Positions 25,773-54,046 of a stretch of 64,000 bases of DNA are shown here, piece by piece. A model generated the notes under the pieces. It was given only the letters and a program-made list of their open reading frames with translations. It was not told where the DNA came from and did not search any database. Each line of letters starts with the position of its first letter. The first letter of the stretch is position 1. Where the stretch lies: contig NZ_CP037951.1 in the NCBI RefSeq assembly GCF_004358445.1, positions 1,723,501 through 1,787,500 on the forward strand. Direction: 5' to 3'. The position numbers and the translations under genes are program-made. This DNA is from Parashewanella tropica (GTDB lineage Bacteria; Pseudomonadota; Gammaproteobacteria; Enterobacterales; Shewanellaceae).

Positions 25773-26786
25773 GTGAGTTATTTAATGATGGATTTGGCGG
25801 GAACAGAAGTTACCGAGCATGAGAAGAAATTGTTGGCTCATCCAATGGTTGGTGGATTAATTTTATTTACCCGTAATTATCAAAATAAAACTCAACTGAT
25901 GGCTCTGGTAAGGGAAATTCGCGCTTCTAATCCAAATATTCTCATTGCTGTTGACCATGAAGGAGGTCGAGTTCAGCGTTTTCGTGGTGAATTTACAGAT
26001 ATTCCTGCGATGGGGAAAATATTGTCAGCAGCTGAAGGTGATCTTTCACAGGCTAAAACTTGGGCTAGAGAACTCGGTTTTTTAATGGCAATTGAATTAT
26101 TGGCTTGCGATATTGATTTAAGCTTTGCTCCAGTCTTAGATGTTGATGGGATCAGTGAAGTGATAGGCGAACGCAGTTTTAGTGAAGAGCCAGAACACAT
26201 TGTTATCCTAGCAAATGCATTCAGCTCTGGTATGAAACAAGCTGGGATGGCGGCTGTTGGAAAGCATTTTCCCGGACATGGTAGTGTACAAGCAGACTCA
26301 CATATTGCTTTACCCGTTGATGTACGCTCAAAAGCAGAAATATTTGCTCATGATTTGCTTCCGTTTAAGCAGCTAATAAGTGACGAGCAAGTTCAAGGGA
26401 TCATGCCCGCCCATGTCATTTATTCGAATGTCGATGAACATCCGGCTGGTTTTTCAAATTATTGGCTACAAACAGTTCTAAGGGGCGAATTGGGGTTTAA
26501 AGGCGTTATTTTTTCGGATGATCTAGGTATGGAAGGCGCTAGTGTCGCTGGTGGATTTAAAGAAAGAGCAACAGCTGCGGTTGCCGCTGGTTGTGACATG
26601 ATTCTGGTATGTAATAACCCTGATGCAGTTAATACACTACTCATTGATTTTCAATGGCCAGATGTTGCTCCTAAGTATCCAGCAAGGCTATTAAAACCAG
26701 ATTTTGCCAATGTGATGCAATCTTTAGAAAACGAAGCTCGATGGCAAAAGGCTAAAGAGATAGCTAATCAAATCAATCGATATTAA
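25773..26786 (+). CDS. nagZ: Beta-N-acetylhexosaminidase NagZ
   Basis: NagZ removes N-acetylglucosamine from anhydromuropeptides in cytoplasmic peptidoglycan recycling. It has 337 residues and is a glycoside hydrolase family 3 TIM barrel. 'VGGLILFTRNY', 'DHEGGRVQRFR' and 'KHFPGHGSVQADSH' (about residues 163-176) are the family signatures, and 'FSDDLGMEGA' carries the catalytic aspartate. The start is GTG at 25773 preceded by AAGGG; the next ATGs are too far in. In E. coli nagZ is followed by ycfP, but here three minus-strand genes separate them. Its last 14 bp overlap the convergent glycosyltransferase gene. Confidence 0.95.
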   Translation: MSYLMMDLAGTEVTEHEKKLLAHPMVGGLILFTRNYQNKTQLMALVREIRASNPNILIAVDHEGGRVQRFRGEFTDIPAMGKILSAAEGDLSQAKTWARELGFLMAIELLACDIDLSFAPVLDVDGISEVIGERSFSEEPEHIVILANAFSSGMKQAGMAAVGKHFPGHGSVQADSHIALPVDVRSKAEIFAHDLLPFKQLISDEQVQGIMPAHVIYSNVDEHPAGFSNYWLQTVLRGELGFKGVIFSDDLGMEGASVAGGFKERATAAVAAGCDMILVCNNPDAVNTLLIDFQWPDVAPKYPARLLKPDFANVMQSLENEARWQKAKEIANQINRY

Positions 26787-27825
26787 GACTAAGCCAGCTT
26801 TGTAACTTCAAAGCATATTGTTCAATCGAAAATCGCTGCTGAGCTGAATCTCGGCAGTGATACCTAGATAGCTTTAAAGCGTCAGCAACTCTATTTGCCA
26901 TATCTTCATTGTTTTCAACCAAATAACCTGTAACGCCTGAAATTACTGTTTCTGTAGGTCCACCTTTATTGTAAGCTATTACTGGAACACCGCAGGCATT
27001 GGCTTCCACTACATTGTTACCAAAGGCTTCTATCCATGAAGGCGTCATTAACATCAATGCCGATTGGCTCATTTCTTTAAGTAACTGTTGTTGTGGTACA
27101 AAGCCTCGCCAGTGAATATCAACTTCTGGAAATTTTTCTACGAGTTGTTGCTGATATGATTCTGACTGTACTTTCCCCCAAATATGAAGAGGGAGATTAA
27201 CTTTATTGGCAACTTCTAGTGCATTTTCTAAGCCTTTCTCTGGCGATATACGACCAACCCAAGCCAGTTGTTGTTTTGGGCTTTTACAAAAAGGAAAATT
27301 GGTAAATTCAAAGCCATTAGCAATAATAGTTACAGGGTTCTCAAGTTGAAATGTGTTAGCCGATGCATGGGAATGAAAAGCTATCCGTTGCGGCATCATT
27401 CTATTCAGTTCTTCTATTGCGTCAGCAACTGTTTGGTTCTCATTACTCATTGAAACCAGATGATGTATGGGAGTTGTAAAAAACGTTGTTAACCAAATTG
27501 GCAACCAGTCATAAGCCATATTGAGAATGACATCAAACTGGTCCTGATGAGTTTGAGCGTATCTACACATTGAGACAATGGTACTGTCGTGACTCATAGT
27601 GGCAGGTGTTGATGCTGACTCTGTTTGAACACTGGTTTGGAGCCGACCTGAAATTTCAATCAAGGTTGCATCGGCAGATAGCTTTGAACCTGTCGGCGCT
27701 AATACCGTAAATTGGTGACCTAACGGTGATAGCGCATTAATGATATTAAGTAAAGTAATATCTATTCCGCCGCCTTCACCTTGTCCAATCGCTTGAACTG
27801 GTGTTGAAATAATTAAGATTTTCAT
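26773..27825 (-). CDS. Glycosyltransferase, pterin (BGluT)-like, GT4 fold
   Basis: This is a GT-B glycosyltransferase of 350 residues with no signal peptide. The N-terminus 'ISTPVQAIGQGEGGGIDITL' strongly recalls UDP-glucose:tetrahydrobiopterin glucosyltransferase (BGluT) of cyanobacteria, which has a similar STPVG-GxGGGVELTL stretch. The C-terminal half has 'WVGRISPEKGLENALEVA' (about residue 189) and 'PSWIEAFGNNVVEANACGVP' with the donor-binding acidic residues. It is the last gene of a unit with an SDR and a PTPS-like gene; its ATG overlaps the SDR stop (TAATG). Together they suggest a pterin glycoside product. The acceptor is inferred from resemblance and neighbours. Confidence 0.78.
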   Translation of the reverse strand: MKILIISTPVQAIGQGEGGGIDITLLNIINALSPLGHQFTVLAPTGSKLSADATLIEISGRLQTSVQTESASTPATMSHDSTIVSMCRYAQTHQDQFDVILNMAYDWLPIWLTTFFTTPIHHLVSMSNENQTVADAIEELNRMMPQRIAFHSHASANTFQLENPVTIIANGFEFTNFPFCKSPKQQLAWVGRISPEKGLENALEVANKVNLPLHIWGKVQSESYQQQLVEKFPEVDIHWRGFVPQQQLLKEMSQSALMLMTPSWIEAFGNNVVEANACGVPVIAYNKGGPTETVISGVTGYLVENNEDMANRVADALKLSRYHCRDSAQQRFSIEQYALKLQSWLSLNID

Positions 27826-28529
27826 TAACGCTCAATTTGCCCCAAGTTAGCATGAATCACAGAACCGTTTATTGCTGGAGTATTAGCAGCAAAGAACACA
27901 GTTTGAGCTATTTCTTCAGGTGTGATTAAGCGACCGAAAGTAACCATTTCTGAAATGGACTTTTCCGCTTCGGGCTCGTAACCAATATGTTCCCTAAGCA
28001 TTTCGGTATCTGTAAAGCCTGGGCAAATGCAAGCCGTGTGAATGCCTTTACCTGTAAGATCTTGGCAGACTGAGCGCATCATGCCAATAACGGCGTGTTT
28101 GCTGGTAACATAGGAATAACAGCCGGGAACGGCTTTTTCACTTAAGGTCGAACCAATAAATACGACCGATGAACTTTGAGGCATGTGTGGTAGCAACATT
28201 TGATTTAGCAGAGTGGGGCTTACAATATTGATGGCTAAATCTTTGTTTAAGGTCTCTGTATTAGCTGTCAGAACAGTATCGCTAGAATGTCCGGCTGCAC
28301 AGTGAACAATAACGGCTTGCGTTGCGCCTTCCAATTCTTGAATCAAACATGTTTGATGTTCTTTAAGGCTTGTTGGCGATGCCAAATCTGTTTCTAGATT
28401 TAGAGTATCTTCGATGTTATTAGGTGAGCGAGATAAATTAACAACCTTAAAGTTGGCTTGTTTAAAATGTTGGCTGATGGCATAACCAATACCACGGCTA
28501 CCGCCGGTAATAATCATAACTTTTTTCAT
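27825..28529 (-). CDS. Short-chain dehydrogenase, sepiapterin-reductase-like
   Basis: This is an NAD(P)-dependent oxidoreductase of 234 residues with a Rossmann fold: 'TGGSRGIGYAI' cofactor loop (about residues 8-18), catalytic Ser in 'FIGSTLS' and the YxxxK pair in 'YSYVTSKHA' (about residue 151). The length and the 'CICPGFTDTEML' loop fit sepiapterin-reductase-like members. Between a PTPS-like gene and a BGluT-like gene, reduction of the pterin side chain is the likely job. The start ATG overlaps the upstream stop (TAATG) and is preceded by GAGGG. General SDR roles cannot be excluded. Confidence 0.82.
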   Translation of the reverse strand: MKKVMIITGGSRGIGYAISQHFKQANFKVVNLSRSPNNIEDTLNLETDLASPTSLKEHQTCLIQELEGATQAVIVHCAAGHSSDTVLTANTETLNKDLAINIVSPTLLNQMLLPHMPQSSSVVFIGSTLSEKAVPGCYSYVTSKHAVIGMMRSVCQDLTGKGIHTACICPGFTDTEMLREHIGYEPEAEKSISEMVTFGRLITPEEIAQTVFFAANTPAINGSVIHANLGQIER

Positions 28530-29035
28530 TATTGACCCTCTTGTTTCCAAGAACTTGAACCCGATTGACCTGCACCAGAAGAAACTGAAACAGTGATATG
28601 TTCTATACCGTACTCAGTAGGTGGAAGGGCTTTCATGATCTGTTCAAGCAGATAAAAGGAAAATTCCTCAACACTGGTATTTCTAATGGGGAGTAGTAAC
28701 GTATCTGAGATAGGGAAATGTAAAATTTCATCATGGAATTTTACATGATACTCATTTTCAAGCTGCTCAATGTGCAGAAAAGGGGACAAGTGGGGTAATA
28801 AGCAGTATTCATCTAACGTCTCACAAAGCGCTTTGGCTTTATCTTTGAAAAGCCGATAGCTATGGGATAAGCCATCATCGCCAACAGGTAAGATTAACTC
28901 CAGTGACATTTGGAAATTATGACCATGAAGGCGTTCACGTTCAGTGGCGGAAAATATCGTGAAATGTGCGGCTGAGAATTTCATATATTCTTTTGCCAGC
29001 ACCAAATGTGTTAATCGTTGATTGCTCTGTGTCAT
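28529..29035 (-). CDS. 6-pyruvoyl-tetrahydropterin synthase / QueD-like protein lacking the usual cysteine
   Basis: This is a 168-residue member of the PTPS/QueD fold, which acts on dihydroneopterin triphosphate. The zinc ligands are present: His in 'FSAAHF' (about residue 24) and both His of HGHN (about 38-40). In QueD a catalytic cysteine lies four residues before HGH, but here the stretch reads 'SATERERLHGHNF', with no Cys. Glutamates sit nearby, as in PTPS-III enzymes where Glu replaces Cys. The C-terminus is 'VSVSSGAGQSGSSSW'. I start at ATG 29035 (AAGG upstream). It is the first gene of the three-gene unit. It may make a 6-substituted pterin rather than the queuosine precursor. Confidence 0.85.
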   Translation of the reverse strand: MTQSNQRLTHLVLAKEYMKFSAAHFTIFSATERERLHGHNFQMSLELILPVGDDGLSHSYRLFKDKAKALCETLDEYCLLPHLSPFLHIEQLENEYHVKFHDEILHFPISDTLLLPIRNTSVEEFSFYLLEQIMKALPPTEYGIEHITVSVSSGAGQSGSSSWKQEGQ

Positions 29036-29162
29036 CGTTACCTTTTTAGTGGGCAAGCCCACTTTATCCAGTTTGCTGTATTTTGACTCACCTCAAACTG
29101 CGAGGAACGGTTTTTTGCTATCTTGACAGTAATTATTGACAATTCAAAGTGGTAACTGACTA

Positions 29163-29702
29163 ATGATTTTATATTTTCATGGATTTGATTCCACCAGCCC
29201 GGGCAATCATGAAAAGATTCGTCAATTACAATTTATTGATAAAGATGTTCGCTTAATTAGTTATAGCACTGAACATCCAAAACATGACATGCAACACTTA
29301 TTAAATGAAGTGGCAAAGCAAAATTCTATGACTGATGATCCTTCTCCTTTACTTATTGGAGTTGGTCTTGGAGGTTATTGGGTTGAGCGTATTGGATTCT
29401 TGGCTGGGATAAAATCGATAATGATTAATCCAAACTTAAGTCCAGAAATCACCATGCTAGGTCGAATTGATCGCCCAGAAGAGTATGCGGATATAGCCAA
29501 TAAATGCGTTTCAGAATTTAGAAGAAAGAATGCTCAACAGTCACTTTGTATTTTGTCTAAAAACGATGAGATATTGAATAGTGGCGCGACTCATTCAGTT
29601 CTTTCAGACTATTACAACATCATTTGGGATGAAGAGCAGGGGCACAAATTTCCTTCACTTAGTGCTCACTTAAATGCGATTAAAGCTTTTAAATTGTCTT
29701 GA
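29163..29702 (+). CDS. ycfP: YcfP/UPF0227 esterase-like protein
   Basis: This is an alpha/beta-hydrolase-fold protein of 179 residues of the UPF0227 (YcfP/YqiA) family. '[19 protein letters not shown]' is the family N-terminus, and '[13 protein letters not shown]' is the nucleophile-elbow region; the usual serine position is not obvious (GVGLGGYW), which suggests that activity may be lost or different. Its true role is unknown. It is divergent from the pterin unit with about 130 bp between starts. Confidence 0.88.
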
Positions 29703-40674: not shown

Positions 40675-42141
40675 ATGGCATCAAGATTAGAGTCAGCGTC
40701 CCTGCTATCTCACACTGTAAAGCGTGAATGTCAATTTCAGTATCGAGAGGTTGAACAAAGTGGGGCTGTTGAAAAAAAGCCCGTTATTTCTGCTGTTTAT
40801 ACTGTTGATGGTGAACGTAGTTACTGCGTTTATTTTACAATGGATTCGCTTGTAAATATTAAATTTACTAAATTTATGCTCGATTCTGATAAAAAGGGAT
40901 TTACATTGGCTGAACCCGAAGCTAAGAGCCCTTGCGAAGATCAAGATCGCGAAAAAATATGGGTACATTTGAAATCAGGTTTACTTAAAAGGATAAAATG
41001 CATTACAGCAGAGACTGTCGAGTTGGAAAACCTGAAGTCATCTGATACGCATAAAAAAAATAATAAACGCACAGGGGATAGCAAGCCTAGTTCAACTACT
41101 GGACAACTGAAACAGGTAGCAGCTGATAGGCCTTCACATTACCCCTCAGCAACAACCCGCCGACGACATAGAGAGTATAGAGGACAAGAGAATAAGAGGG
41201 GAAGCTGGGCTGGAGGAGAAGCAGGTGCCGCAGCTATTGGAGTTATCCAAAAAGAACAGCAACTAGAAGCTCAAATCAAAAAGTTTAATCAACATGTAGA
41301 GCAAAATAGAGCTTTCTTCTCAAAGCAAGAAAAGGAACTAGAGCAAAGCAAAAAACAATTGGAACAAGAACGAGAGAGCATTCAACAAGAAGTTGAGAAA
41401 AAAGCACAGCAATTATATGACGAGCGAGTTGCAGGACTTAAAGAAACTGAAAGCTCAATTAGGCAAAGAGAATTAAAAATTGTTAGGCGCGAAGAGGCTT
41501 GTGCGGAAAGGGAGGGAGGCCTATCACAAAGAGATACTGAGGTTAGTCAGCTTAAAGAAAAGCAAGGGAAGTTAAAGCGTAAGCTTCAAGAAAGAGAGAG
41601 TTCACAAACCAAGCAGGAAGCGGAATTAGATAAAAGGTCAGAGGAGTTACAACAACAAATAGAGCAACTTACTCAAGTACAGGCTAATCAACAACAAAAG
41701 GAGAAAGAAATAGCTAGTAAAACTGAAGAGTTAGTTAAAGACCAAGAAAGTTTAGAATCGAATATCAGAGAACTAACCAAATCAAAAGAATTATTGGCGG
41801 AGAAGCGTTCTGAATTTGAAAAGAAATGTTCTATGTTCGAACAGCAGCAATCTGAATTTGCGCAAATGCGTTCAGAGTATGAACAGCGAAAATCAGAGCT
41901 TGATGAGGAACGTTCTGGATTCGAACAGCAGCAATCTGAATTTGCACAAATACGTTCAGAGTATGAACGACAGTGTTTAGCAAACGAAGAACAGCATCGA
42001 GATATTTTAGATAGAGCACAGCAACTTGTGGAGTTAGCAACACAGTCATTGCAATCCCATTTAGCTAGTGACACTACTCCTAACGAATTAAGGCAGGCAT
42101 TGGAGAAATTAAAAACCGCATTGGATAGTTCAACAATATAA
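40675..42141 (+). CDS. Coiled-coil protein with N-terminal beta domain, 488 aa
   Basis: I do not recognise a family. The N-terminal part (about 15-115) is beta-rich and similar to the same region of the next gene. A basic, Ser/Thr-rich linker (about 120-175) follows. Then comes a long coiled coil (about 185-485) full of Gln, Glu, Lys and Arg, with heptad spacing. Within it a 28-residue period repeats ('FEQQQSEFAQMRSEYE' and 'FEQQQSEFAQIRSEYE'), encoded by an 84-bp DNA period (41836-41884 and 41920-41968). There is no signal peptide or membrane segment. Bacterial coiled coils of this kind occur in structural, secreted effector or chromosome proteins. The start has no strong ribosome binding site. 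Confidence 0.78.
   Translation: MASRLESASLLSHTVKRECQFQYREVEQSGAVEKKPVISAVYTVDGERSYCVYFTMDSLVNIKFTKFMLDSDKKGFTLAEPEAKSPCEDQDREKIWVHLKSGLLKRIKCITAETVELENLKSSDTHKKNNKRTGDSKPSSTTGQLKQVAADRPSHYPSATTRRRHREYRGQENKRGSWAGGEAGAAAIGVIQKEQQLEAQIKKFNQHVEQNRAFFSKQEKELEQSKKQLEQERESIQQEVEKKAQQLYDERVAGLKETESSIRQRELKIVRREEACAEREGGLSQRDTEVSQLKEKQGKLKRKLQERESSQTKQEAELDKRSEELQQQIEQLTQVQANQQQKEKEIASKTEELVKDQESLESNIRELTKSKELLAEKRSEFEKKCSMFEQQQSEFAQMRSEYEQRKSELDEERSGFEQQQSEFAQIRSEYERQCLANEEQHRDILDRAQQLVELATQSLQSHLASDTTPNELRQALEKLKTALDSSTI
41836..41968 (+). repeat. 84-bp-period tandem repeat inside the coiled-coil gene
   Basis: Two 49-bp blocks (41836-41884 and 41920-41968) differ at only two bases and start 84 bp apart, which is 28 codons or four heptads. 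This is a recent internal duplication that keeps coiled-coil phase. Confidence 0.85.
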
Positions 42142-42194
42142 ATCTACATGGTGTGTGAAGAGTAAATAGTTAATTTTTAATCTTGGGGCAAGGC

Positions 42195-42965
42195 ATGTTG
42201 CAATTGTATTCTTCAGGTTCTGGTTCTGGTTCTGAGCCAATTTTTTTTGATTGCATTGAACAAAAAGCACCGTTAAATCAATCTGGAAGACCGACAGGAG
42301 ATTCCGTATTAATTGCATCATATTGTTACCAAGGAAAATTATATGCCTGTACATTCAATAAGCAGGGCATTATAAGGTTAACTACTTTCCATCGCGTTAT
42401 TACAGCATCAAAAGAGTTTGTAGGATTTAAAAGAACGGAATGTGAAGTAACGGACTCGAGTATAATTAGTGTTTTTAATGCTACCGTGAATTGTTCAATA
42501 CTTGCTAAGTTCTTTTATGATAATGCAACAAGTTTACACAGAAAACCAAGGGCACTTTCACCGAGCACTCCATCTTTGCAACGTCAAGACTCGATAAGGG
42601 TAGCAACTGAAAGGTTGAAGGTGAAGCAAGGAGGAAAGTTAGATCTTCAACAAGAGAGGAGTACAGGAATAATGCTAACTCCTCAGGTAACACTTCGCCA
42701 AAGTTTCAGGCGGCGACCAGCGACAGCATCTACAGAGATACTTTCAGGTCAATCATCCCTTTCAACAGGGGAGCAAACATATTTAGCGGCTAATGAATTA
42801 CAGGCTGAGAAACAAAGATTCAGTCAATATCAAATGCTAGAACAAGAAAAACTAAAAGCTGGCTTCGGTAAATTAAAAGCATTTGAGCGTGAGTTAAAAG
42901 ATAAGCAGGCAGAGTTGGAAAGAAGAGAGCTTGCTTTAACGAAAGCTCAAGGTGATTTCGTTTAG
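42195..42965 (+). CDS. Coiled-coil paralogue with N-terminal beta domain, 256 aa
   Basis: The N-terminal domain (about 12-110) aligns by eye with that of the previous gene: 'IASYCYQGKLYACTF' matches 'SAVYTVDGERSYCVYF', followed in both by a similar beta pattern. A basic Ser-rich linker follows, and then a short coiled coil (about 200-253) that ends abruptly. This looks like a shortened form of the neighbour. I start at ATG 42195 with GGGG six bases upstream; the frame opens at TTG 42183. It lies 53 bp after the first gene on the same strand. Confidence 0.75.
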   Translation: MLQLYSSGSGSGSEPIFFDCIEQKAPLNQSGRPTGDSVLIASYCYQGKLYACTFNKQGIIRLTTFHRVITASKEFVGFKRTECEVTDSSIISVFNATVNCSILAKFFYDNATSLHRKPRALSPSTPSLQRQDSIRVATERLKVKQGGKLDLQQERSTGIMLTPQVTLRQSFRRRPATASTEILSGQSSLSTGEQTYLAANELQAEKQRFSQYQMLEQEKLKAGFGKLKAFERELKDKQAELERRELALTKAQGDFV

Positions 42966-49118: not shown

Positions 49119-50369
49119 TTGAAACTTAAATCTCATCATGATATTGATTTATCGTTAGTTTTAAGAGGTTTTATTGTAGTGAGTACAACTTGTATAGCAG
49201 TTTCTGAGCATCAACATTCAAATGTTCAAACCAGTAATGATGAAAGCACCACCTCTTTACTAAAGCTAGAACTTAGAAATGGTTTCATTGGTTACTATCA
49301 TGTTGAGGCTCATCCTGATTTTTCTCTAGATGAAATTGCTTGTTGTAGAGCTTGGTATAGTTTTTATGCGAATAATGGCAGTTTACCTTTAACTCCTCAA
49401 CTCAATGCCTTTGAATGTAAAATTGATTTTTCAAGCTCTGATATTGAACCCAAAAACTCAATTTTTAAGGTTGAAATTCGTTGTCAAGCGTATTTCGATA
49501 CAGCGGTAATACGTTTTCTTAACCATGACGCCAGTCGGGTTGAACGGGTTTTATCTCTAGATTTTTCTACCACTTCTGTAGGTCTATTGCATTTAAAAGA
49601 TTCCTATCAGCTGCTGAATGAGCTTCCAGAGTTTCCGCTGTTACCTAAGCCAAGGTTAAGCTTGAGCTTTGATCGAAATTATCAATGCCATACCCAATTT
49701 GTTACTTTAGGGCCTGAAGAAGAGCAAAGGCTCGACTTTCTAGGCTTATTTAAATCTAGACACACTGTTTCTAGTGTGATGCTTAATAGTCCTGAGTATC
49801 CGCTCAATAATACTTGGCTAGTTGAGTTTTTAAAACAGGTTTGCGCAGGCTTAGAAATGTTTTGTGCAAAAGGTTATGAATTAAACCAATTACTTCCGTC
49901 TGACTTTGGCTATGATACTCAAAGTAAAAAGTCATGTCTTTTAGCATGGCGAAAACTGTCACCGATAAATAGCCAAATGGTTAGGAAACATTTGGAACCA
50001 ATAAAATCGAAACAGAATGCAGTTGTGGTTTTAGCGCAGTTAGTTTTTATTCTCTCTGGGAAATTTTCGAAGACAGTAGAAAAACATATGGCAAGAACTC
50101 AATGGACCCAATTGGAATTAAGTTGTACTAAGTTACAAGCTGAAGTACTTAAATACATGAAAAAGTCATCTTCAGATTGGAAAAAACATACTAAAACTAA
50201 TGAAAATACATCCCTATCTGCTGATATAAAAGTGTCACATGAGATTAGTGCAATTGATAGTATGCTTCTTATGGTGGTCTATATCCTTCACCAAGATTTT
50301 CTCCATTCACCAGAACTATCGCTTATAAAAGGCCACTTACAAAAAATAAGAGAAAAATACTGGTATTAA
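49119..50369 (+). CDS. Hypothetical protein, 416 aa
   Basis: I do not recognise this protein. It has no clear signal peptide. The N-terminal half is beta-rich ('CRAWYSFYANNGSLPL', 'FKVEIRCQAYFDTAVIRF'), and the C-terminal half is helical. A stretch at about residues 240-280 ('VCAGLEMFCAKGYELNQLLP' followed by 'SDFGYD') faintly resembles the HRD-DFG region of a protein kinase, but the HRD residues are missing and I treat this as weak. The start is a TTG (49119) with no good ribosome binding site; a GTG near 49179, after GAGG, is an alternative. It lies just after ycaR. Confidence 0.65.
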   Translation: MKLKSHHDIDLSLVLRGFIVVSTTCIAVSEHQHSNVQTSNDESTTSLLKLELRNGFIGYYHVEAHPDFSLDEIACCRAWYSFYANNGSLPLTPQLNAFECKIDFSSSDIEPKNSIFKVEIRCQAYFDTAVIRFLNHDASRVERVLSLDFSTTSVGLLHLKDSYQLLNELPEFPLLPKPRLSLSFDRNYQCHTQFVTLGPEEEQRLDFLGLFKSRHTVSSVMLNSPEYPLNNTWLVEFLKQVCAGLEMFCAKGYELNQLLPSDFGYDTQSKKSCLLAWRKLSPINSQMVRKHLEPIKSKQNAVVVLAQLVFILSGKFSKTVEKHMARTQWTQLELSCTKLQAEVLKYMKKSSSDWKKHTKTNENTSLSADIKVSHEISAIDSMLLMVVYILHQDFLHSPELSLIKGHLQKIREKYWY

Positions 50370-50371
50370 CT

Positions 50372-50968
50372 TTATGATTCTAACTTAGCAATCATGGTCT
50401 TAGCGAGTTCTTTGACTTGTCTATTTGGTACGTTTAGAAATGCAGTTAATAGCTTGTGCATGAGACCAGGGTCATTTGTTATTCTTGTTTGAAAGGCTAG
50501 CATAAACTGCTGGGAAATCGATTGGTCAAACAGTGGAATTTGATTATTTGTATCACGACGAGTAAGCGCTGTGGATATACTTGAGGTCAGAACTCCATGT
50601 TTCAGCATTTGTTGCATTAAGGTTGTCGCTTGAGTTGTTGTTAACGTTGCAAAAGCAGGATCGACTTTACTGGTTACATCCATAAAGGCATCACAACTGT
50701 TATTGCCAAAACTACCAGACCTTGTTTTAGAAAAAATCACATCTGTATTTTTTGGGTGTTTAGCCAAAAACTCTGATATCACTTGATCTAACTCTTTACA
50801 CTTTTCATCAACGGTTTCAACACTAGGAGTTCGATGACTAACTAAGTATACATGCCCAATGTTACATATTGTACAAGCGTAGATGTCTTTACCTTCACGC
50901 TCTTCAAGGGTGAAAAGGCATCTATGTGGGGCTGGTTGTGCTGGAACGGCTTGAGCTTGAGTTGTCAT
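50372..50968 (-). CDS. Cys-motif protein, 198 aa (paralogue of 51076-51402)
   Basis: I do not recognise a family. Near the N-terminus is H15-x-C17-x14-C32-x2-C35-x21-C57, with 'ACTIC' and 'DEKCKELD'. The same ligand spacing is found in the neighbour at 51076-51402. This suggests a zinc-binding module. The C-terminal part (about 95-198) is helical ('TTTQATTLMQQMLKHG'). A Pro/Ala/Gln N-terminus precedes the motif. It lies convergent to 49119-50369 with two bases between. Confidence 0.72.
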   Translation of the reverse strand: MTTQAQAVPAQPAPHRCLFTLEEREGKDIYACTICNIGHVYLVSHRTPSVETVDEKCKELDQVISEFLAKHPKNTDVIFSKTRSGSFGNNSCDAFMDVTSKVDPAFATLTTTQATTLMQQMLKHGVLTSSISTALTRRDTNNQIPLFDQSISQQFMLAFQTRITNDPGLMHKLLTAFLNVPNRQVKELAKTMIAKLES

Positions 50969-51075
50969 AGCTAATCAAAATAAAGTTTTGTGTTACGGTG
51001 AGCTTATTAAAATATAAGAAAATAAGTAAGTTAATGTTTGTTAATCGCGAGGGAGTCAGTATTTTTCGTAGTCTA

Positions 51076-51402
51076 TTATTCACACACTTTACAAATTGCT
51101 AAAAGAACAAATAGCCTATCACCATTGCTACAGCTCCAAGTGTTTGGTTTGACAGTGATATGAGCTGGGCCTGAAGACTTGTTTTGTTCATGTAGAAAGG
51201 CTCCGGTTATTTCATCTAACCTCGGGCACTTTTCATCTGTTGAATCCACAGTGTTCAGTCTATCTTTAACGGAAAATACATATTCTTTACGGCAATATTT
51301 ACATTTGAAGGTGTCACTGTTATCTATGACTTCATGTACATAAGAACAGGGATGCCCAATAGATTTTAGAATATGGAATATATTGTCTGATTGTATTGCC
51401 AT
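51076..51402 (-). CDS. Cys-motif protein, 108 aa (paralogue of 50372-50968)
   Basis: This shorter relative of the preceding gene has H17-x-C19-x14-C34-x2-C37-x21-C59, with 'KCKYC' and 'DEKCPRLD'. It lacks the long helical C-terminus and ends in 'LLAICKVCE'. I start at ATG 51402; a TTG at 51456 would add 18 residues but has no start signal. It could be a truncated duplicate or a functional small form. Confidence 0.68.
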   Translation of the reverse strand: MAIQSDNIFHILKSIGHPCSYVHEVIDNSDTFKCKYCRKEYVFSVKDRLNTVDSTDEKCPRLDEITGAFLHEQNKSSGPAHITVKPNTWSCSNGDRLFVLLAICKVCE

Positions 51403-51544
51403 AGTACATTGAGTGTATAAGTGATGGTTTTTAATCAGAGTAATCAAATCCCACAATTAGGATAAGTTAATTTTTTTTCATACTTAACTTGTCACCATAA
51501 ATCTTTGATATAACTGCCAAGGTGATAATTTCCACTGAAAGTCT

Positions 51545-51565
51545 GTTCTCAATGATAATGAGAAC
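51545..51565 (+). promoter_or_regulatory. Fur-like palindrome upstream of the 819-aa gene
   Basis: The arms GTTCTCA and TGAGAAC are perfectly inverted around a 7-base centre (ATGATAA). The inner 'AATGATAATGAGAA' resembles Fur boxes built from NATWAT repeats. It lies 22 bp before the ATG, so binding would block expression. The match is moderate. Confidence 0.45.
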
Positions 51566-51586
51566 GTTCATGGGTAAGGGGGATTT

Positions 51587-54046
51587 ATGTCTGGTGAAAA
51601 CGTTTCATATGACGGGAACTTACATTCTAGAAGTCAGCATTCTTATTCGGTTCACCAAGGAATGAGGACTGACGCAGTAAATCCACATTCGCAAGATTCG
51701 GTGCAATCCCGTGGACCATATCCTCAACCATCACAGCCACTAGGGGCAGGGGGGCAAGAATGGGATGTGAATCAGCCTGAAGGACAAGATCATTTACAGC
51801 CAAGTTTTCATCAACAACCTTTTGTACCAGCAGCAACACCACATAATTCAGTCACAAGTCAGTATACGGCTTCAAGTTTATTAAGTACTAATACAGGTAC
51901 TGGAACAAGTGCTTCAAGTGTAACGACGCAATTAAGAGAGACTTCAATTGCAGATAGAAAACCAGCAAACGGAAATAACCCGGGTAATCATCCACCTTAT
52001 AATTATTATCATCCACAAGACCCTGCATGCTATGCTAGACCTCCTCAGCATCCGAATTCAACTTATTTTCAGCAATCACCGCGATCCGATATGCTGTATC
52101 AAGGTCATCAGTACCCATCTTCGCCATTGGTTGTTCAAGTCCCGGTTGTAATCCAGCCCGTGTACGTTCAACAGCCGGGAAGCATCAGCGGCGTTGTTGC
52201 ATCAGTCCAAGTTGTTGGTGAAGGACATACTAGATTGATGCGAGAGAAAAAAGTTATTGATACTTGGCTAAAATACCCTCAAGCACGATTGAATACCGAA
52301 CAAACTAACTGTGTTAATTTTGTCATTGGGGGGACAAATTCAGATACGCCATTTGATTATGCGCATGCTTGTTGTCTGGAGCAGAGAAAAACAGTTGTAA
52401 TAGTGAATTTTAACCACACACTAACGTTTCTAGGAGTTATGCCTCGAGAACCGGAGCGTTTTCAAATGAAAAACTTGACAGCCAGCGTTAGTGCTCAAAT
52501 TAAAGTCATGCCAGCTAAGTTACTACTCGCAAGTAGTAGAGATGCACTAACAAGAATATTAAGAGATCTTAATAACTCTAAATACCAAGGTCATTATCAA
52601 CTACTTCTTGCGCAAAGCCCATTAATCAGAGATGAAAACGGCTCTATAACACGAGCCCATGGCAGTTATTTTTTTGCTTGTATTGAGCCATCCACAGCGA
52701 TACAAGTCACTACTCTTAATAGCCCTGAGCGATATGAAAATGCATTTGATGCGATTTCTGAAGTTTGTTGCTTGCTCTGTTATTTTAGTGCTAACCATCC
52801 AGATGAAGCCTTATTAAAGCAGAATCAGTTATATCAAATGGCGTTACGCATATATAACGCATACCATACAGGTGGTATAAATGCCGATAAATTTAAAACG
52901 GCCTGGAAAACTACTTTAACAAGAAATGTTACAGATGATGTAAATAAGCAAACACCTTACCTCAAACTTGGTTGTGCACCTTTAGTTGAAGACTTAGGGA
53001 ATTATTTGGGTTTTCCTTTTGCAGTATCTGATCTTTTGAGTGCATTACGTACAGATTTAGCTAATGAAACAATAAAGGAACAACAAGCAAAACAAGCAGA
53101 ATTGCAGGTTAAATACCCTGTAGCATGGGGAAAAACCAAAATAGATAGATGTTTATTAGAAAAAGCAATAATGGATGTTCCGGAACTGAAGCTTCTGCTA
53201 GCGCTTGCACCGGATGCTAAATATTTTTATTTGTTTGATATTGTGGCTTTTTTGGAATTGATACAAATGGATGCCGATACAATAGGTCAGTTACCCATTG
53301 CGTATAATACCTCTGAATTGTTTTCGTGTAGGTTACTTTTACTAAATAAAGAGGCATTCCAGGAAGCAAAGCAGCTTAGAGTGCAAACATTGAAAGATGA
53401 GCCAGAATTTCCAAAATATGATCTTAGCAAGACTCTTGCAGAGCATTCTAAGCATATTAAAAAATTACAAGAGTTGGATATAGAACCTAGATTATTAAGA
53501 GAATATCTCGATAGTGCAGAAGAAGGCTTGCCACAAAAGAGAAAGCTTAAAGGTGATACGACTGTAGGTGCGATGTGGTTAGATTTTGAATTAGTCCATA
53601 AATCAAAGTCGGATGATTGCACGAGTGTATACCAAAGAGCATTAATTGATACTCTACACATCAAGCCGAATCAAACTGAAAATCCAGAAGATCAATGGGA
53701 ATTTACGATATCTAGAGGGGGTAAAGATTCTCGGTTTAGAGCCATAGGTATAGGAATGTTAGGCCCAAGATACTACAGGCATGCAGAGAGCGTTGCAAAG
53801 ACAAAGGGATGGGACAACTTTGAAAAAACCGCTCAGGGGACATGTGATATTTGCAAAAATAAAGATACTGGAAGGTTTAGGTTAAATTATGATTTAGACG
53901 ATCCATTTAGATGGCCTGATAGAATCTCTAATAAACCATGGTATCACTGTGATGAAACGAATGAAGATTGCTGCTACGAGTGCGCTAAAAATGAAGCACC
54001 AACACAAAATCCATCTGGTAAAAGTGATAAAGGAACAATGGTATAA
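51587..54046 (+). CDS. Large protein with disordered N-terminus and C-terminal Cys/His cluster, 819 aa
   Basis: I do not recognise a family. Residues 1-205 are Pro, Gln, His, Ser and Tyr rich and probably disordered ('YPQPSQPLGAGGQ', 'PPYNYYHPQDP'). The middle (about 210-740) is a folded, mostly helical region with no known catalytic motif. The C-terminus has C753-x2-C756, H787, C788, C795, C796 and C799, with 'TCDIC' and 'WYHCDETNEDCCYECA'. This recalls ZZ-type zinc fingers of eukaryotic proteins. No signal peptide. AAGGGGG precedes the ATG. A Fur-like palindrome lies upstream. An effector or surface-associated role is a guess. Confidence 0.78.
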   Translation: MSGENVSYDGNLHSRSQHSYSVHQGMRTDAVNPHSQDSVQSRGPYPQPSQPLGAGGQEWDVNQPEGQDHLQPSFHQQPFVPAATPHNSVTSQYTASSLLSTNTGTGTSASSVTTQLRETSIADRKPANGNNPGNHPPYNYYHPQDPACYARPPQHPNSTYFQQSPRSDMLYQGHQYPSSPLVVQVPVVIQPVYVQQPGSISGVVASVQVVGEGHTRLMREKKVIDTWLKYPQARLNTEQTNCVNFVIGGTNSDTPFDYAHACCLEQRKTVVIVNFNHTLTFLGVMPREPERFQMKNLTASVSAQIKVMPAKLLLASSRDALTRILRDLNNSKYQGHYQLLLAQSPLIRDENGSITRAHGSYFFACIEPSTAIQVTTLNSPERYENAFDAISEVCCLLCYFSANHPDEALLKQNQLYQMALRIYNAYHTGGINADKFKTAWKTTLTRNVTDDVNKQTPYLKLGCAPLVEDLGNYLGFPFAVSDLLSALRTDLANETIKEQQAKQAELQVKYPVAWGKTKIDRCLLEKAIMDVPELKLLLALAPDAKYFYLFDIVAFLELIQMDADTIGQLPIAYNTSELFSCRLLLLNKEAFQEAKQLRVQTLKDEPEFPKYDLSKTLAEHSKHIKKLQELDIEPRLLREYLDSAEEGLPQKRKLKGDTTVGAMWLDFELVHKSKSDDCTSVYQRALIDTLHIKPNQTENPEDQWEFTISRGGKDSRFRAIGIGMLGPRYYRHAESVAKTKGWDNFEKTAQGTCDICKNKDTGRFRLNYDLDDPFRWPDRISNKPWYHCDETNEDCCYECAKNEAPTQNPSGKSDKGTMV

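Follow-up and report, generated by a model that had tools for sequence, protein, structure and literature searches.

A predicted pterin-glycoside unit between nagZ and ycfP in Parashewanella tropica

A three-gene unit at the nagZ-ycfP locus

The analysis of a 64,000-nucleotide stretch of the Parashewanella tropica genome (contig NZ_CP037951.1, positions 1,723,501 to 1,787,500; this whole stretch is the window, and it lies within a one-contig 4.2 Mb genome) focuses on three adjoining minus-strand genes that together suggest a route to a glycosylated pterin. The first, at 28529..29035, encodes a PTPS-fold enzyme of 168 amino acids (P0003) with the motif RERLHGHN; the second, at 27825..28529, encodes a classic short-chain dehydrogenase/reductase (SDR) of 234 amino acids (P0002), a predicted pterin reductase carrying TGGSRGIG and YVTSK; and the third, at 26773..27825, encodes a BGluT/PgtA-like glycosyltransferase (GT) of 350 amino acids (P0001) with the Pfam domain Glycos_transf_1. 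Direct reading of the sequence places a one-base TAATG stop-start overlap at each junction, at 28527..28531 from PTPS to SDR and at 27823..27827 from SDR to GT (both minus strand), and a putative Shine-Dalgarno-like site, AAGGTAACG (29036..29044, minus strand), precedes the PTPS start codon. A preliminary description of this DNA, made from the letters alone, had joined the genes in this way, and its coordinates proved exact; its main proposal, that the three enzymes might together convert dihydroneopterin triphosphate to a reduced pterin bearing a sugar, finds support in homology.

The arrangement recurs in P. curva (locus L005), where the same three genes occupy the same place with protein identities to those of the window of 83% (PTPS), 89% (SDR), and 76% (GT). 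Nonsynonymous divergence (dN) between the two species lies far below synonymous divergence (dS), as expected under purifying selection (for the GT, dN is 0.15 and dS is near saturation), and this constraint on a recurring gene order argues that the unit did not arise by chance. The SDR-GT junction of P. curva is again TAATG, and its PTPS and SDR genes lie 2 bases apart with no overlap. Across the genus, 5/5 genomes have a close SDR, 4/5 the PTPS (in G394 as two pieces around unknown bases), and 2/5 the GT, namely the window's own genome (G000) and G397, all at the same nagZ-ycfP place; a partial 33% match in G395, belonging to another GT, was left out of this count. The PTPS-SDR pair seems to be the older part of the unit with the GT added later, the alternative being loss of the GT. 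The rare part of the unit is the GT; the PTPS occurs widely and is, in many genomes, accompanied by the SDR.

Both flanking genes lie on the opposite strand: nagZ on the left (25773..26786, plus strand; NF003740, 487 bits, E-value 3e-146), whose 3' end overlaps that of the GT gene by 14 bases, and ycfP on the right (29163..29702, plus strand; NF003431, 309.8 bits, E-value 7e-93). In an E. coli plasmid record the two genes are spaced 22 bases apart on one strand, and the 2.9 kb of the window spanning nagZ and ycfP corresponds to 526 matching bases in two Proteus records. Because this spacing is short there, the unit represents additional DNA relative to those records, which, with the flanks identified, bears out the initial impression of an insertion. 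The base composition is ordinary, with a GC content of 0.40-0.42 in the three genes against 0.40 in the window. Elsewhere in the window, 40675-42965 and 49119-54046 encode several proteins of unknown family that are of low complexity or coiled-coil; by eye, two adjacent ones look alike in their N-terminal parts.

Identity and origin of the glycosyltransferase

The homology search that was run on the GT places it firmly in the BGluT family. Its closest solved sequences are BGluT of Pseudanabaena (E-value 1e-88) and of Synechococcus 7942 (2e-85), each 41% identical to it over nearly the whole length; the next group in the PDB follows at an E-value of 7e-27, a gap of some 58 orders of magnitude. 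This assignment was further strengthened by an AlphaFold model built on 28 rows (mean predicted local confidence, pLDDT, 90.3), for which Foldseek ranks 1-7 are all BGluT chains, including the complex with dihydrobiopterin, with template modelling (TM) scores to the query of 0.82-0.95; the 43 other chains listed reach at most 0.78. The nearest characterised relatives by both sequence and fold are thus BGluT, and not enzymes that act on cell-wall or capsule sugars. Conservation was scored over 78 cyanobacterial rows (76 loci and 2 PDB rows, leaving out L074, three gammaproteobacterial rows, and three remote GTs), and the GT keeps 64 of the 82 columns that are at least 95% conserved, 27 of these 64 being absent from the three remote GTs. 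The exact acceptor, as predicted from such comparisons, is less firm than the family.

The distribution of the GT is largely cyanobacterial. A scan of an 84,980-genome collection returned at least 542 relatives, and among the best 80, which were examined, 77 are titled cyanobacteria; the other three come from P. curva (76%), a gammaproteobacterium of the BD1-7 clade (49%), and one metagenome-assembled genome (MAG) labelled Acidimicrobiia (L074:2789-3838), whose cyanobacterial-type pterin GT could reflect contamination or transfer. Within 394 genomes of the order, three matches with E-values below 1e-20 were found besides the window's own, at only 25-28% identity. In the GT tree (85 rows, with L042 too short to be placed), the Parashewanella and BD1-7 sequences form one clade (support 100/99) next to five picocyanobacterial rows, with joint support of 100/97, or 99/99 in a tree thinned to 41 of the rows. 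These five include Candidatus Synechococcus spongiarum, a sponge symbiont. Transfer of the GT from cyanobacteria is likely, a view that rests mainly on distribution, and its direction is unproven because a single clade of all 36 cyanobacterial rows is not rejected (approximately unbiased test, p-AU 0.077). No homologue of the window's PTPS or SDR lies in the 13 kb around the GT of BD1-7.

The PTPS-type enzyme and its SDR partner

The PTPS carries the Pfam domain PTPS (PF01242, 36.2 bits, cut-off 22.4), and its motif stretch TERERLHGHN contains ExxHGH and lacks both the Cys of PTPS-II and that of PTPS-I. According to the accessible text of PMC5041015, ExxHGH is the signature of PTPS-III, an enzyme that forms 6-hydroxymethyl-dihydropterin and bypasses FolB; CxxxxxHGH, which the window's enzyme does not match, is that of the biopterin-making PTPS-II. 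The best PDB matches are Plasmodium PTPS (E-value 4e-20 with the single sequence, 1e-31 with a profile), which also carry ExxHGH. Among 369 gammaproteobacterial genomes, 75 match P0003 at an E-value of 0.001, and 27, the window's own included, hold a relative at an E-value below 1e-20 (a P0003-type PTPS); RExxHGH is present in 26/26 of the P0003-type genomes outside the genus. No PTPS-II was found in the window's genome, where the second PTPS-family match is a 304-amino-acid frame that lacks all three motifs. Because the PTPS carries ExxHGH and not CxxxxxHGH, the predicted pterin is a 6-hydroxymethyl-(di/tetra)hydropterin, the core of cyanopterin, and a biopterin core is the less likely one.

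The second enzyme belongs to the classic SDRs (Pfam adh_short, 106 bits), and T8, G9, G13, G15, S127, Y140, and K144 are invariant in a 12-row alignment of 11 sequences with a PTPS-III gene nearby and one, from L113, without. FabG-like proteins and sugar dehydrogenases head its PDB match lists. Neither a sepiapterin reductase, the identity first suggested for it and now unsupported, nor a pteridine reductase is named among its best 60 of 479 single-sequence or best 60 of 443 profile PDB matches, and no FolM model appears among its best 25 of 207 NCBIfam matches. An AlphaFold model built on 2 rows reached a pLDDT of 53.6 and was not used.

The neighbourhood of other PTPS-III genes is more informative as to the role of the SDR. 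Twenty of the 26 P0003-type loci outside the genus were fetched at length; an SDR homologue (43-50% identity) lies near the PTPS-III gene in 8/20, a FolM-type pteridine reductase in 7/20 (six over the NCBIfam cut-off and one at 286.9 vs 288), both in 1/20 (L149), and neither in 6/20, some of which are on short contigs. Since SDR homologues or FolM-type reductases lie near PTPS-III genes in this way (L144, L152, L153, L158, L160, L161, L145, L147-L149, L155, L156, L159, and L163 hold one and/or the other), the SDR is suggested, without proof, to belong to pterin reduction. A MidA-like methyltransferase gene is present at 10/20 of these loci (Pfam Methyltransf_28 confirmed on three), and at L156:6662-7432 a queuosine-precursor transporter gene stands between the PTPS-III and SDR genes, an arrangement that the spacing at L132 suggests as well.

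Competing explanations and known systems

We read the unit, with a probability of roughly 0.55, as a branch of three dedicated enzymes that starts from the product of GTP cyclohydrolase and gives a glycosylated 6-hydroxymethyl-tetrahydropterin. The PTPS-III-type enzyme would cut the side chain of 7,8-dihydroneopterin triphosphate to yield 6-hydroxymethyl-7,8-dihydropterin; the SDR would reduce this pterin, most simply to the tetrahydro form; and the BGluT-like GT would attach a sugar, in all likelihood glucose donated by UDP-glucose, at the hydroxyl of the side chain, so that the product would resemble the cyanopterin core. The computation shows how the genes are ordered and coupled, which family each protein belongs to, the ExxHGH motif, the recurrence in P. 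curva, and the existence elsewhere of PTPS-SDR pairs lacking the GT; the individual reactions, the identity of the sugar, how far the pterin is reduced, and what the product does are inferred.

Several observations weigh against this reading. The SDR has no close characterised relative among the NCBIfam matches listed or the best 60 PDB matches of either list, and with TGGSRGIG it lacks the arginine of TGX3RXG that marks the FolM/PTR1/PruA pteridine reductases (as given in the available part of PMC13259868). Locus L149 holds an SDR homologue and a FolM-type gene 4-5 kb (4.3 kb) apart; the SDR may not simply replace FolM, and treating the two as strict alternatives describes a tendency, not a rule. 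On the GT, no NCBIfam model scores over its cut-off, the best being an adhesin glycosyltransferase at 57 bits vs 800, and 18 of the 82 conserved columns differ, which could mean a changed acceptor; several of these (e.g. 11, 22, 128, 134, 155, and 245) are altered in P. curva and BD1-7 too, and position 87 is another of the changed ones. The PTPS-SDR pair also occurs without the GT in two congeners. Finally, of 20 GT-bearing cyanobacterial genomes that were checked, 19 contain CxxxxxHGH, as does the BD1-7 genome (only another PTPS-like type, with HGY, turned up in the twentieth cyanobacterial genome), and ExxHGH was seen in none of the PTPS matches read there, which covered all but a few weaker or unlisted ones. 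Because related-GT genomes elsewhere use PTPS-II, GTs of this family probably act, as a rule, on biopterin.

This last point, with the tetrahydrobiopterin used by the closest characterised relatives of the GT, gives substance to an explanation that we nevertheless consider unlikely, namely that the PTPS makes 6-pyruvoyl-tetrahydropterin despite its Glu, that the SDR is a sepiapterin reductase, and that the GT, like that of Synechococcus 7942, forms a tetrahydrobiopterin glucoside. Such a route is consistent with a reductase gene in the operon, and the BD1-7 genome, which carries QueD as well, has folE, an SDR gene, and an animal-like PTPS-II gene in a row (L210:4692-6457), near genes that we take to be for F420 biosynthesis (cofC, cofD, cofG/H). 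Standing against it are the missing PTPS-II and PTPS-I Cys of the window's enzyme, the RExxHGH of all 26 P0003-type relatives outside the genus, and the distance of the SDR from sepiapterin reductase among the PDB matches listed.

Quite unlikely, too, is an origin of the PTPS-SDR pair in some other service, as cofactor supply for phenylalanine hydroxylase or as folate supply, with a later-acquired GT acting on any pterin, for example, monapterin or neopterin. The standing of the pair without the GT in two congeners agrees with this explanation, and the genome does contain a pterin-dependent enzyme of the kind the preliminary description had proposed looking for, phenylalanine hydroxylase (phhA), followed by a PCD-like gene recognised by eye. 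Moreover, the hydroxylase domain Biopterin_H occurs in 17/27 genomes with a P0003-type PTPS vs 39/342 others (Fisher p 3e-9, kinship uncorrected), or in 13/27 (p 9e-6) without four weak split matches (G521, G547, G659, and G754), of which three fall in frames some 580 amino acids long; ten family codes hold both, two of these only through weak matches. This co-occurrence is a lead for the PTPS-SDR pair and not for the GT. Against the explanation, every one of the five genus genomes and of the 5 family members checked from other genera has the hydroxylase, whether or not it carries the unit, and in both genomes with the GT a TAATG overlap ties the GT gene to that of the SDR.

As for folate, FolB is kept in all five genus genomes, the window's included, which makes the PTPS dispensable for folate there. 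In the class sample of 369 genomes, those with the PTPS do not lack FolB significantly more often than the others (5/27 vs 37/342, p 0.21), and an association seen in a hand-picked comparison (FolB absent from 5/26 PTPS-bearing genomes outside the genus vs 0/21 controls) vanished; a FolB substitute is thus not called for in the window's genome, and such a role elsewhere in the class draws no support from the sample. A role of the PTPS-SDR pair as a FolX replacement was set aside, no general rule being found in the class sample. FolB-family genes number one in G000, G394, G395, and G397, which have the PTPS, two in G396, which lacks it, and two or three in five members of the family from other genera; two or more such genes occur in 17 genomes of the class sample, none of which has the PTPS and only 2 of which have the hydroxylase.

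A non-pterin acceptor for the GT, such as a sugar or lipid, with its operon place incidental, is very improbable given the gap in E-value to the next group, the seven leading BGluT fold matches, and the linkage to two pterin-type genes, even though 18 conserved columns are changed and related GTs with other acceptors exist.

A broader scenario built on the three-enzyme branch is possible, if doubtful. The widespread gammaproteobacterial PTPS-III, with a P0002-type SDR or FolM, would make 6-hydroxymethyl-tetrahydropterin as a cofactor or redox signal, e.g. for phenylalanine hydroxylase, and in Parashewanella a cyanobacterial-type GT would have been added, perhaps via gene exchange with sponge picocyanobacteria, to give a glycoside for storage, export, or light screening. 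A limited search of the open-licence literature found no description of such a PTPS-III pathway, nor of such an operon in Parashewanella or Shewanella, nor of pterin glycosides in a relative of Shewanella. The accessible parts of that literature tie prokaryotic pterin glycosides to cyanobacteria, green sulfur bacteria, and Sulfolobus, with their role still open, and link the cyanobacterial ones to UV-A protection and phototaxis signalling (PMC3546692, in part). If confirmed, the unit would extend a chemistry known mainly from cyanobacteria to a non-photosynthetic bacterium, and a compact heterotroph operon with near relatives that lack the GT would offer a simple genetic test of the role of the pterin sugar, free of photosynthesis. 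Candidate roles for the product are a UV screen, a redox store, a signal, or a cofactor form, and the PTPS-III/SDR pair predicts a tetrahydropterin route that is neither that of biopterin nor that of monapterin.

Among known systems, the nearest is BGluT, the UDP-glucose:tetrahydrobiopterin glucosyltransferase of Synechococcus 7942 (PDB 5ze7/5zer/5zes) and Pseudanabaena (PDB 9v0l/9v0w), with which the GT shares near full-length homology, fold, and most family-conserved residues; unlike BGluT, it resides in a non-photosynthetic gammaproteobacterium, in an operon with a PTPS-III and an SDR, and its partner PTPS is not a PTPS-II. The PgtA of Synechocystis 6803, a BGluT homologue compared here through its description, makes cyanopterin, in which a 6-hydroxymethylpterin, tetrahydro in vivo, bears a chain of two sugars (PMC3546692, as far as the accessible text goes). 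By analogy, the pairing of a BGluT-like GT with a PTPS-III in Parashewanella is less odd than it looks, the predicted 6-hydroxymethyl-tetrahydropterin core being common to both, whereas the window's unit holds one GT. CtPGT, the pteridine glycosyltransferase of Chlorobium tepidum and another bacterial pterin glycosyltransferase, likewise compared by description only, differs in using UDP-GlcNAc as donor and threo-tetrahydrobiopterin as acceptor (from the portion of PMC5683033 available). The PTPS shares ExxHGH with the PTPS-III of Plasmodium, its nearest solved relative, and of folate-making bacteria, from which it differs in that its genome keeps FolB and in its linkage to an SDR and a GT. 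FolM and PruA, finally, are SDRs that reduce dihydropterins, and FolM-type genes stand near other PTPS-III genes as the SDR does here; unlike these enzymes, the window's SDR is without the TGX3RXG arginine.

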